Part shown: positions 30,671 through 57,990 of the stretch, in pieces
Position numbering within the stretch: the stretch's first letter is position 1
Layout of the letters: each line of letters begins with the position of its first letter
Translations under genes and position numbers: made by a program
Assembly (NCBI GenBank): GCA_028688955.1
Contig: JAQTXD010000013.1
Span: 1 to 64,000, forward strand
DNA: 64,000 nucleotides
From: Desulfuromonadaceae bacterium
GTDB taxonomy: Bacteria > Desulfobacterota > Desulfuromonadia > Geobacterales > Pseudopelobacteraceae
Reading direction: 5' to 3'
Notes under the pieces: model-generated
Databases searched by the model: none
Told to the model about the DNA's origin: nothing
Seen by the model: only the letters and a program-made list of their open reading frames with translations

Positions 30671-30900
30671 TTTTGTCTCCGTACTATTTCATTGCAGACT
30701 GTTTTTTCACCTATATACCAGAAACAATTGACTCCAGATGCACTAAATTTTTCAAACGACTGTTGCACCTTTCCTCGAGAGCGGTACCGGGCTGAACATG
30801 AATGCTTTTGTTACGTGCGCTCTTTCCTGGTTCTCCCGTTTTTCCAGCTGTGAGCCACCTTCCGGGGCACACTTTTCCCCTTCAAAATTCGCATTTTATA

Positions 30901-31463: not shown

Positions 31464-32398
31464 TGACCGGCTTTCATCACCTGTCGGTTCTGCCGGATGA
31501 GGTTATCCGTTTTCTGGAACCGGCTGACGGCAAGACCTATCTTGATGGAACCCTGGGGGGGGGCGGTCACGCCTCTTTGATCCTTGAAAAAGCGCCAGGC
31601 GCTATCCTCATCGGCATCGACCGTGACCAGGCGGCACTGGCGGCTGCAGGAGCGCGACTGGCAGAGCACACCAGGAATTTCCGTCTGGTTCACGGCGACT
31701 TCGCCGGCGTAGCGGAACATTTGCAGATTCTCGGCATTACGGCGGTGGATGGTTTTATTCTCGATCTGGGAGTTTCATCACACCAACTGGACACAAGAGA
31801 GCGTGGATTCAGCTTCCAGCAGGATGCCCCGCTTGATATGCGGATGGATATCAGTCGCGGCGAAACGGCTGCTGACCTGGTAAATGAGTGTCCTGAAGCG
31901 GAACTGGAACGAATCATCAGCGAGTATGGCGAAGAGCGGTGGGCAAAGAGGATCGCCTCATTTATCGTCAGGGAACGCGCCGAGTCGCCGATAACAACGA
32001 CCTTCCGTCTGGTTGATATTATCAAGGGAGCGGTACCAAAAGCCAAATGGGATGAACGGATTCACCCGGCAACGCGTACCTTTCAGGCACTCCGCATCGC
32101 CGTCAACAGCGAACTGGACAGCCTGGAACAGGGGATGCGGGCAGCACTGAATCTGTTGAAGCCCGGTGGACGGGGCGTAATCATTTCGTTCCATTCACTG
32201 GAAGACCGGATCGTCAAGCATATTTTTAAAGAGTACGCGGAAGGCTGCACATGCCCGCGTCAGCTGCCGGTATGCGTATGCGGCAATCTACCGCGGGTCA
32301 AGATCCTGACCAACCGGCCGGTAACGGCAACTGAGACAGAAATTAACGAAAATCCGCGGGCACGCAGTGCAAAATTGCGCGCTGTATCAAAGCTGTAG
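31463..32398 (+). CDS. rsmH: 16S rRNA (cytosine-1402-N4)-methyltransferase RsmH
   Basis: A 311-residue SAM-dependent methyltransferase (formerly MraW) that modifies C1402 in the ribosomal decoding centre. Motifs: [15 protein letters not shown] (SAM loop), [40 protein letters not shown], and [16 protein letters not shown] near the C-terminus. It is the second gene of the dcw cluster, overlapping mraZ by one base. Confidence 0.97.
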
Positions 32399-32420
32399 AA
32401 ACACGGAGGGAGGTACCCGT

Positions 32421-53677: not shown

Positions 53678-53718
53678 AATCCGTCATATTTCACCCCATC
53701 CTTACAGGAGCCAGTCCA

Positions 53719-55035
53719 ATGAAAAAGACCTGTTGTACCCTGCTCTGTGCAGCGTCACTTGCAGCGACACCCCTTGGAGCCTTGGCAGCCGACGTAACAG
53801 TTGACTCCACTACCCTGCTTGGTATCAGCCAGCGGGATGTTTCCGGCGCTTCAAAGGAAAACCTGCTTCCCGCCACCCAGTTTCTTGGCCTCACCGCAGA
53901 TAAACTTGCCGACGGCAACCTGTCACTTCATCTGTACGGATGGGGACGTGCCGACCTCGCCGACAAAAGTTACGACAGCAACAAGAGTTCCGGCAGTTTT
54001 ACGTACGCGTATCTTCAGTATCGATTCAAAGAGGCCGGTGCAAACATCCGTGCCGGACGACACTTTATCCGTGAAGGCATTATAAATGAGCAGATTGACG
54101 GCGTCAGTGCCCGCACCGATCTCCCCATGGGCTTTGGCCTGTCGGCCTTCGGTGGCGCCACCGTACATACCACGCACATGAGCGGTGAAAGCAGTGACGG
54201 CAAAGGCGATACCCTCTACGGAGGTCGCGCCAACTACCGCTACAAAGGTCTTCTGGAAGTGGGGCTTTCGGGGGTGTACGAAAGTGCCGCACCGACTCTA
54301 TCCACCCATACAATTGGAGACTACCGTCGTGTCGGAGCTGATCTCTGGATAACCCCGGTCAAATCGGTTGATATCCTCGGGCACAGCAGTTACAACCCGG
54401 AAACACAGAAAATTGCCGAACACACCTATCTGCTCAGTTACAAGCCAATCCAGCATCTGCTGCTAAGCGGTGATTTCAACCGACACAACGAGAAAAGCTA
54501 TTTCTATTCCTCGTCCATGTTTTCTGCCTCAATCCTTAACTCCACTGACAAATCAACCAGTCATGGGATAAGCGCTTCTTACGAAATAAACAAAAACCTT
54601 GAAGTTGCCGGTGATTACAAACACTACAAACGTGAATTCGGCAGCGCAAACCGCTTTGGCGGTGACGCTCGCGTTAATTACAAGGACAACACCATCCGTG
54701 GCGGCATAGGCTACCACTATCTCAACGCCGGAGAGGGGTTTGCCATCGGCAGCAATCCTAATGCCTCCTATCACGAACTGCGCTGCTACGTCATGCGGGA
54801 TAGTAAAAATTATTTTGGCGCCATCGACCTGCTCGGTGACTTTTTCAAAGAAAAAATAAAAAATGTGAGCAGTGCATGGGAAGCTAGCGCTTCACTCGGC
54901 TATCACATTACCCCCGCCATGGCTTTTTCCGGAGACTTCAGCTATGGCAGAAACCCTGAATTTACCGAAGAGGCCAAAGCGCTTCTCCGCTTGACCTACA
55001 ACATGACCTACCCCGGTATAGGAGGGAAGAAATGA
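53719..55035 (+). CDS. Outer-membrane beta-barrel porin of a porin-cytochrome cluster
   Basis: 438 residues. A Sec signal peptide ends near residue 24 (ATPLGALAAD). The rest is Gly, Tyr and Ser rich, with alternating polar/hydrophobic strands (SLHLYGWGRADLA, FTYAYLQYRFKEAGANIRAG, HLLLSGDFNRHNEKS, ASASLGYHITPAMAFSGDFS), typical of a barrel. It lacks a terminal Phe. The ATGA overlap with a pentaheme lipoprotein, then a larger multiheme cytochrome, matches Geobacter porin-cytochrome (Ext-type) conduits, where the barrel holds cytochromes across the outer membrane. Resemblance to a particular Ext cluster is not established here. Confidence 0.75.
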   Translation: MKKTCCTLLCAASLAATPLGALAADVTVDSTTLLGISQRDVSGASKENLLPATQFLGLTADKLADGNLSLHLYGWGRADLADKSYDSNKSSGSFTYAYLQYRFKEAGANIRAGRHFIREGIINEQIDGVSARTDLPMGFGLSAFGGATVHTTHMSGESSDGKGDTLYGGRANYRYKGLLEVGLSGVYESAAPTLSTHTIGDYRRVGADLWITPVKSVDILGHSSYNPETQKIAEHTYLLSYKPIQHLLLSGDFNRHNEKSYFYSSSMFSASILNSTDKSTSHGISASYEINKNLEVAGDYKHYKREFGSANRFGGDARVNYKDNTIRGGIGYHYLNAGEGFAIGSNPNASYHELRCYVMRDSKNYFGAIDLLGDFFKEKIKNVSSAWEASASLGYHITPAMAFSGDFSYGRNPEFTEEAKALLRLTYNMTYPGIGGKK

Positions 55036-55508
55036 AGACCCGAACTGTAACGCTCATACTCCTGGCAGTCGCCGGACTCTTTGCCATGCTGTCCTCCTGT
55101 GCCCAGATGAAAACAATTCCCGGCCTTCCCGCTTCCCACCCGGAAGCGCTCGCCGTCGGTCAGCAGGTAAACTGTGCCGAATGCCATGAAGACCAGCAAA
55201 AAGGGACAATGAAGGCCTTCAACGCTTTCAGTCACAGCCAATCCTTCGTCAAGAACCACCGCTTTTACGCCGCGTCAGATGACCGGCTCTGTTCAACCTG
55301 CCACAAAACGTCCTTCTGTGCAGACTGCCACACCAACAAAGTTGAAATGAAGCCGTCCACCAGATACGGTGATCGTCCGGACCGTGAATTCCAGCACCGC
55401 GGCAATTTCATCACCATGCACAAGATCGAGGGGAAACTTGACCCCGCCAGCTGCTACCGCTGCCACGGCAGAGCCAATAACGAACGCTGCGTTGCGTGCC
55501 ATAAATAG
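55032..55508 (+). CDS. Pentaheme c-type cytochrome lipoprotein
   Basis: 158 residues. A lipoprotein signal with lipobox LSSC places the acylated cysteine at 23. Five CxxCH heme sites lie at Cys48/51, 87/90, 96/99, 141/144 and 153/156, plus extra histidines (for example in FSHSQSFVKNHRF and HRGNFITMH) that can act as distal ligands. The start overlaps the porin stop. It probably sits at the periplasmic side of the outer membrane and hands electrons to the conduit, though side and direction are inferred from related clusters. Confidence 0.9.
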   Translation: MKTRTVTLILLAVAGLFAMLSSCAQMKTIPGLPASHPEALAVGQQVNCAECHEDQQKGTMKAFNAFSHSQSFVKNHRFYAASDDRLCSTCHKTSFCADCHTNKVEMKPSTRYGDRPDREFQHRGNFITMHKIEGKLDPASCYRCHGRANNERCVACHK

Positions 55509-55517
55509 GAGAACATC

Positions 55518-56141
55518 ATGATTACGTGTAGACACCTACTAATTCTGTTCATGTTGACAACTGTCTGGGGCTGCAGCAAAGCCGGTGATAATACTGTCAT
55601 TCTCGATGCAACCGGTAAACATCCAACGGGCTGGGCCGTTGCCACCATTGGTGGGAATCACCCGGCAGCGTTTATATCTTCTCCTGACACCTGCAAAGAG
55701 TGCCACGGCACGGACTTGCGAGGTGGTGTAAGTACCGTAAGCTGCTTCAGTCAGGACAGGAACGGCATAACGTGTCATGCTCAAGGGCCTTCCGGTCACC
55801 CGACTGGCTGGAGCAGTCCCACAGCCCACGGCACTCACGCTAAGGCGCCCGCAGCGGGGGCAGATGGGATGATGTTCTGTGCAAAATGCCACGGTGCGGA
55901 CTACACGGGTGGCATTGGCAAGTCATGCATGACCTGCCACACGACCGCTCCACACCCACCTAAACCATGGTTTGGCGGTACATATACCCATAAAAATACG
56001 AACCCTCCAACTCACCCGCTTGTGCGTTGTGCCACACGAACCGGGCCAACCTTAGTACTGCTGCTGCAGGTGCGTTGCCGGCGACACCCGTTATCGGCAC
56101 AAGCGGATGTTTTAACAATACCCTCTGCCATGGACAATTAG
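55518..56141 (+). pseudogene. Multiheme cytochrome, 5' part (frame broken near 56003)
   Basis: A lipoprotein-like start (lipobox VWGC, Cys19) and canonical CxxCH at Cys59/62, 121/124 and 137/140, plus a CX9CH at Cys76/86. The natural sequence runs to about residue 162 (THKNTN). After that the frame reads nonsense to a stop at 56141. In the -1 frame, from about 56003, the sequence goes straight on as PSNSPACALCHTN, fitting the module repeated elsewhere in the protein. One base appears to be missing in the CCC run at 56003-56005. Together with the 3' part it would be a protein of about 464 residues. Confidence 0.75.
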
Positions 56142-56911
56142 GTCATCCTGCCGACTGGGCCGCTACGGGTCACAAGACTGCAGCAAAAGCCGCCGCCAGC
56201 ACCAGTACTGGTCTGGACTACTGCAGAAACTGTCATGGAACTGATTTCAAGGGTGGTACATCAGGAACCAGCTGTTTCAGTTGCCATTCATCAGCTCCAC
56301 ATGCAAAACCGTGGCTGAAATCTGCCGGAGCAACTACCTACATTCACAGCACAACCGATCAGACAAATGCCACCGCCTGCGGCAGGTGTCATGGAGGTGG
56401 AGCCAAACTGGCAACTCCGACAACACCTCCGGCAAATGCGGGTTGTTTCAACAACACCCTTTGCCACGGCACGGTAGTTGCCCACGCATTCCCTAATCCG
56501 GGTTCTCTTCATAGAACTTCGACAACAGGGTGCAGTTCATGTCATGCACTGGGAACTGGGGCTAGTCCATATCCTGTTGCCGCTTCCATTGCGCCAGACT
56601 GCAAGAGCTGTCATAAACTTTCTACTGCGACAAGCATGGCACTTATGGCAGGATGTTCCGACTGTCATGGAGATGCTGCGACCGGCAGGCCGAACGGTGC
56701 ATCATTCCCTAATCGCGCCGGTCAGCATAACAGAAGCGAACATGTCGGTCGTGCCTGCACTGCCTGTCATCCATTTACATCCGGTAATTCAAGTCACGGG
56801 TGGTCGAACAGGGTAATTAGCACTTCTGCACAAGTCAACGCGCCGGGCTGGAATCCTGCCAACAAAAGCTGCACAAACAGCTGTCACGAAGGAAATACTT
56901 ACTTTTGGTAG
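56003..56911 (+). pseudogene. Multiheme cytochrome, 3' part
   Basis: The continuation of the cytochrome in another frame. The earliest formal start in this frame is a TTG at 56027 inside a heme motif (CALCH), so it is not an independent gene. It holds eight CxxCH motifs (CALCH, CRNCH, CFSCH, CGRCH, CSSCH, CKSCH, CSDCH, CTACH), two CX5CH (CFNNTLCH) and one CX3CH (CTNSCH). Repeated modules of the type CxxCHG-D-F/Y-GG...CxxCH...AP..KPW occur in both halves. Including the 5' part there are 11 canonical and four non-canonical sites. It is probably an outer-surface cytochrome related to Geobacter CxxxxCH/CxxCH proteins. Confidence 0.75.
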
Positions 56912-56934
56912 ACATCTAGTACTTGAGACGTAAG

Positions 56935-56989
56935 CTCAAACGCCCTGTCAGAAATATTTCGACAGGGCGTTTGAGTCTGCATTTTTTTT
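56935..56989 (+). terminator. Strong terminator after the cytochrome cluster
   Basis: CTCAAACGCCCTGTC (56935-56949) and GACAGGGCGTTTGAG (56961-56975) form a perfect 15-bp stem with an 11-base loop. TCTGCA and eight T follow. It ends the porin-cytochrome transcript and lies just before the convergent srkA stop. Confidence 0.93.
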
Positions 56990-56997
56990 GACGACTG

Positions 56998-57990
56998 TTA
57001 CATATGTACTTCCAGAGCCGGTTCACTCAGCGCCCCCAATTGTTCCCGCAACTCGAGAATATGCTCACCCCAATATCGTGTTGTGTTAAACCAGAAAAAT
57101 GTGTGTGGGAAGAGCGGGTCACTCCAGCGCCGTGCCAGCCAGGCACTGTAATGAAGCATACGCAACGTGCGCAACGGTTCAATCAGACGCAATTCCCGCG
57201 GATCGAAATCATTGAACTCCCGGTATCCCTCCAGCAGTGAATCCAGTTGGGCCAGTTGCCGGGGCCGCTCCCCGGAAAACATCATCCAGAGGTCCTGCAC
57301 CGCCGGTGCCATGCGGGCGTCATCAAAGTCTACAAAATGCGGGGCGTTGTCGCGCCAGAGGATGTTTCCTGCATGGCAATCGCCATGAGTCCGGATGATG
57401 CTAACGGGCCCGACTTCTGCAAAAATGGTATCAATTGCGTCCAGCAACTGCCCGGTAACGGCAACATAACTGGCCCGATACTCATCAGGTATAAATCGCT
57501 CTTCGATCAGGCGCACGCTATTAGTGCCAAAACTCTCCCTGTCAAGTGTCGGGCGATGATAAAATGGCTGCACCGCTCCGATGGCATGGATCCGCCCGAG
57601 CAACCGACCGAGTATTTTCAGATTGGCAAGATTATCAAACTCCGGAGCATGCCCCCCCTGTCGGTGGTACAGCGCGAAATAAAATCCATCGTATTGCAAC
57701 AGACTCTCACCCTCTGAATTTAGCAGCGGTGCAACGATAGGAAGCTCCTGTTCAACAAGTTCAAAGCAAAAGGCGTGTTCCTCCCGGATTTGCTCTTCAC
57801 TCCAGCGTTCCGGACGATAAAACTTGGCGATTACGGGGAGAGATTCGTCAATTCCAACCTGGTACACACGGTTCTCATAACTGTTGAGTGCAAATGTGCG
57901 GCTGTCACAAATAAAGCCCTGACTTTCCACAGCGTCCATGACGAGGGATGGAGTCAGACGCTGGAACGGATGGGTGCTCATGGTCGTCAT
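56998..57990 (-). CDS. srkA: Stress response kinase SrkA (YihE-like Ser/Thr kinase)
   Basis: A 330-residue APH/ChoK-fold kinase following E. coli SrkA closely: LNSYENRVYQVGIDE, VIAKFYRPERWSEEQIREEH, the catalytic RTHGDCHAGNILWRD, metal-binding HFVDFDDARMAPAVQDLWMM, and WLARRWSDPLFPHTFFWFNT. SrkA protects cells under envelope/oxidative stress. In E. coli it is next to dsbA; here it is alone. AGGA is five bases before the ATG. Confidence 0.93.
   Translation of the reverse strand: MTTMSTHPFQRLTPSLVMDAVESQGFICDSRTFALNSYENRVYQVGIDESLPVIAKFYRPERWSEEQIREEHAFCFELVEQELPIVAPLLNSEGESLLQYDGFYFALYHRQGGHAPEFDNLANLKILGRLLGRIHAIGAVQPFYHRPTLDRESFGTNSVRLIEERFIPDEYRASYVAVTGQLLDAIDTIFAEVGPVSIIRTHGDCHAGNILWRDNAPHFVDFDDARMAPAVQDLWMMFSGERPRQLAQLDSLLEGYREFNDFDPRELRLIEPLRTLRMLHYSAWLARRWSDPLFPHTFFWFNTTRYWGEHILELREQLGALSEPALEVHM

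Follow-up and report, generated by a model that had tools for sequence, protein, structure and literature searches.

A large multiheme cytochrome gene interrupted by an apparent one-base loss in a porin-cytochrome-like cluster of a Desulfuromonadaceae bacterium

Gene content of the cluster

The window, a stretch of 64,000 nucleotides from contig JAQTXD010000013.1 (assembly GCA_028688955.1), carries on its forward strand an apparent cluster of a porin-like gene, a pentaheme cytochrome gene and a large cytochrome gene that is broken. The first gene (53719-55035, + strand) is a 438 aa ORF predicted to encode an outer-membrane barrel, and a match to it was present in 47 of 58 genomes including its own. 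It drew a weak match to the Pfam family OMP_b-brl (E 0.0077, 16.9 bits, below the cutoff of 28.7) and no meaningful match among solved structures, and the designation porin-like is taken from the below-cutoff match together with the gene order. The second gene (55032-55508, + strand) encodes a 158 aa cytochrome with five CxxCH motifs, a match to Pfam Cytochrome_C7 (26.4 bits, cutoff 24.8) and an N-terminus that was lipoprotein-like by eye.

The third gene occupies two overlapping frames. Its 5' frame (55518-56141, + strand) is a 207 aa ORF with three CxxCH motifs and one CX9CH motif, has TAGGAG upstream of the ATG at 55518, and starts with a lipoprotein-like signal, judged by eye, that ends in WGC. 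Read as far as 56000 it contributes 161 residues, including the motifs CKECH, CAKCH and CMTCH, while its codons beyond the break are an out-of-frame read-through to a TAG. Pfam matches of this half were below cutoff. After five bases at 56001-56005 (+ strand) the 3' part (56006-56911, + strand) supplies 301 residues with eight CxxCH, two CX5CH and one CX3CH motifs and matched both Cytochrome_C7 and Cytochrom_c3_2 above cutoff. The open stretch of the 3' frame begins at 55994, ends with the stop at 56911 and overlaps the 5' ORF. With the expected two codons filled in at the break, the joined cytochrome has approximately 464 residues with 11 CxxCH motifs and four longer C-Xn-CH motifs. The CxxCH motifs were clean in both halves, as an initial annotation of this DNA had remarked, and no second stop or shift was present in either half. 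No solved structure matched with an E-value below 0.04, and NCBIfam gave nothing above cutoff.

The longer motifs are located at 55743-55778 (CX9CH), 56108-56131 and 56444-56467 (both CX5CH) and 56870-56887 (CX3CH). Their cysteine and histidine residues were invariant across five aligned relatives, with a shorter spacing at the first motif in one locus (L034), and the four may bind heme; a limited literature search found no paper on CX5CH. Over 55476-55754 the pentaheme gene and the large cytochrome gene that follows it run in one frame, the end of the first being parted from the start of the second by a single TAG. A match to the 3' half crosses this TAG, and crosses one stop in several relatives too, perhaps due only to the heme modules on both sides.

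Downstream of the cluster is a possible terminator (56935-56990, + strand), read directly as a 15-base inverted repeat with an 11-base loop, a short spacer and a T run. The terminator scan did not list this element, whose loop and spacer exceed the limits of the scan, and the sites returned by the promoter scan were no more numerous than in shuffles.

Porin-cytochrome conduits of the Ext/Pcc type are expected to have an outer-membrane barrel gene, a small multiheme cytochrome gene next to it and a larger multiheme cytochrome gene following. Both cytochrome genes were found here beside the porin-like gene, the larger one having its eleven CxxCH motifs spread over two frames that are one frame in relatives. 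By analogy with the conduits of Geobacter, a metal-reducing relative of this bacterium, the three-gene cluster would pass electrons across the outer membrane. Passages of PMC6148476 describe ExtEFG of Geobacter sulfurreducens (GSU2726-2724) as an outer-membrane barrel, a pentaheme lipoprotein cytochrome and a large dodecaheme cytochrome; they give ExtG 12 hemes and a predicted periplasmic location, and have the unit extend into a hydrogenase. Gene order and pentaheme content, the features compared, are common to the two clusters. Unlike ExtG as described in those passages, the third protein of the window cluster begins like a lipoprotein and carries 11 CxxCH motifs, and unlike the ExtEFG unit that runs into hydrogenase genes, the window cluster is followed by the possible terminator and has a broken third gene.

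The cytochrome in relatives and further clusters in the genome

The 3' half was matched in 39 of the 58 genomes searched (the window's own included). In the four best other relatives the cytochrome was a single open frame, measuring stop to stop 522 codons in G015, 585 in G023, 476 in G003 and 484 in G032, with 14 CxxCH motifs in G023 and 11 in each of the others. The proposal in the initial annotation that the two overlapping frames are one cytochrome was therefore upheld by four uninterrupted counterparts, and the orthologues read through the point at which the 5' frame of the window ends.

The junction was examined with two separate queries, the 70 residues that lead up to the break and the 70 that follow it, searched in 111 loci (L003-L113), leaving out two loci from the window's own contig. 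All 160 junction pairs, from 81 loci, were in one frame and none was in two frames, although the pairs do not represent 160 independent genes, as many loci were the same contig fetched twice and the modules repeat within the protein. Within the subset of 63 loci from searched genome contigs, 60 had a junction (118 pairs), the exceptions being L090, L093 and L094. Both anchors were aligned to their ends in 39 pairs, with six bases, or two codons, between them in 36 of these and 9, 12 and 12 bases in the remaining three. The five bases of the window are one fewer than this common arrangement, in agreement with the one-base break that had been proposed. Its location near 56003 likewise held, the break lying at 56001-56005, but loss from the CCC run named in that proposal was not singled out by the relatives, and the run is only three C's long. 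As a positive control, ORFs of relatives searched against the window fell into two frames at the broken gene, indicating that the method can detect a break.

In the zone where the two frames overlap, the 3' frame was identical to G015 at 36 of 44 residues (score 199), whereas the 5' frame gave only a local match in which 21 of 44 codons were aligned and 12 identical (score 30). The match of the 3' frame to relatives is thus not due to chance. Ratios of pN/pS for the 5' and 3' parts, respectively, were 0.29 and 0.27 against G015, 0.34 and 0.44 against G023, 0.46 and 0.30 against G003, and 0.39 and 0.31 against G032. Since synonymous sites were near saturation (pS about 0.69 and above), these values reflect the time before the break and show past constraint only. 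For the period since the break pN/pS is uninformative, and the sole sign that can be read from the sequence is that neither half appears to have gained a second stop or shift yet.

The G015 counterpart (L032, G015:C47, Geobacteraceae bacterium GWC2_53_11) was 68-69% identical over the 3' part, and its neighbouring genes, as judged from ORF starts, were largely the same on both sides. This cytochrome (L032 5632-7197) is uninterrupted and, unlike the window gene, has no porin and pentaheme genes directly upstream. Porin fragments of G015 were located on other contigs, several at contig ends. The gene order around the cytochrome in L035 was similar to that of the window, neighbour identities again being judged from ORF starts.

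Two further porin and cytochrome clusters were present in the window's own genome, at contigs C94 and C56. The C94 cluster (G000:C94:124348-127341) has a porin 82% and a pentaheme cytochrome 95% identical to the window copies. Its third cytochrome, distantly related and 39% identical to part of the 3' half, has its eight CxxCH motifs in one open frame of 453 codons, unlike the broken window gene. At C56 the identities were 35% for the porin and 45% for the pentaheme cytochrome, and an ORF carrying five CxxCH motifs comes after them. The porin and pentaheme genes are duplicated between window positions 53705-55512 and G000:C94:124334-126144 (L120 1835-3645) at 83% DNA identity, and this match ends at window position 55512, just before the broken gene. 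The third cytochromes differ strongly between the two copies, as if the large cytochrome had been exchanged as a cassette.

Explanations for the frame break

Set against the relatives, the third gene appears to be interrupted by the loss of a single base at 56001-56005 with the frame otherwise intact. We consider it highly probable (roughly 0.9) that the cytochrome gene of a putative electron conduit was interrupted by this one-base loss, through a consensus error or a recent mutation and without recoding. The initial annotation had offered a recent event or a sequence error among its explanations, and these two are supported as a pair. A single assembly cannot separate them, and we lean slightly towards error.

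That the break is a sequencing or consensus error, with the organism carrying an intact gene, was given about an even chance. The assembly is a draft of 212 contigs with an estimated contamination of 5.91%, neither half has accumulated further damage, and the porin-like and pentaheme genes upstream have intact frames with matches in relatives. Against an error, the break lies outside any long homopolymer, and no other convincing break was found when ORFs from 19 stretches of four relatives were compared with the window and window ORFs of at least 100 codons with matches were scanned. The scan covered 53 such ORFs, two of them the halves of the broken gene, with a summed length of 62,739 bases in which overlaps are counted twice and a match need not span the whole ORF. 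It returned 18 candidate rows, three of which came from the broken cytochrome. Sorted by eye from their coordinates, 13 of the other 15 rows were alignments on the strand opposite the genes, and by eye one row near 30871 re-aligned the same residues and one near 32221-32415 reflected overlapping neighbouring genes. A generally error-rich assembly is therefore unsupported in this region. The window also contains 95 homopolymers of six or more bases with no other break seen, which disfavours a run-length-prone assembly and tips the balance a little towards a real mutation. Standing alone and away from any long run, the break is compatible both with one consensus error and with a true mutation.

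That the large cytochrome gene has truly lost its function by a recent mutation, which the organism tolerates since paralogous conduits exist in its genome, was rated at a little under even odds. This reading is favoured by the C94 cluster, with its near-duplicate porin and pentaheme genes and a distant third cytochrome in one frame, by the more distant third cluster, and by the 19 of 58 genomes that had no match to the 3' half, which indicates that the genus can do without this protein. A parallel is available in G. sulfurreducens, where passages of PMC13194489, a long-term culture study, report mutated conduits that had not been linked to current production. However, relatives that possess the gene keep it under constraint and the window copy has no second lesion, so a loss would have to be very recent.

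Recoding, in which ribosomes would shift -1 at the break to make the full protein, was judged very unlikely even though both halves are intact and a C_CCT tetramer at 56003-56006 permits single-codon re-pairing in principle. No in-frame heptamer of the X_XXY_YYZ type with both triplets uniform was present in 55985-56141, as the initial annotation had observed while still listing a recoding site among its options. The fold of 56003-56100 (98 bases) had a z-score of +0.53 in a pseudoknot-free model, its stability being matched or exceeded by 140 of 200 shuffles, and frame changes occurred in none of the 160 junctions of relatives. A lineage-specific, non-canonical -1 shift at C_CCT, yielding full-length cytochromes in small number along with a truncated lipoprotein of three hemes and so tuning the conduit's load of large cytochrome, would be more doubtful again. 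Within the limited literature retrieved on frameshifting with multiheme cytochromes or Geobacter, and on programmed frameshifting with cytochrome c, no comparable case was found.

A phase-variable gene or two separate proteins, though two ORFs can be listed mechanically, is scarcely credible: no tandem repeat was found in 55400-57000, the break has three C's and no nearby run is longer than the A5 at 55992-55996, so the phase-variable tract suggested earlier is unsupported, and no relative ended at the same place among the junctions found. Codons ATG, GTG or TTG occurred in the 3' frame only at TTG 56027, TTG 56075, ATG 56636 and ATG 56645. The first of these (56027-56029, + strand) lies inside a CALCH motif, which a start there would cut, and no Shine-Dalgarno sequence was seen for it; the second is closely preceded by a weak AGGTG. 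A signal peptide is needed for heme to be attached in the periplasm, and none was evident by eye after any of the four starts. A separate 3' protein is implausible on the grounds of start site, signal and heme motifs.

Consequences for the putative conduit and its annotation

With the gene interrupted by a one-base loss, the product as written would be an exported, truncated fragment carrying three CxxCH motifs and then some 45 residues read out of frame, and the part with the other eight CxxCH motifs would be neither made nor exported. The broken gene belongs to a known kind, and the break most likely arose through an ordinary mutation of recent date or an error in assembly, not through a new mechanism. 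The main point for annotation is that heme inventories of this bacterium would miss the cytochrome, or record only half of it, if it is left as two partial ORFs. A real break would add one more case in which an outer-membrane electron conduit lost its large cytochrome while near-duplicates of the conduit are still present.
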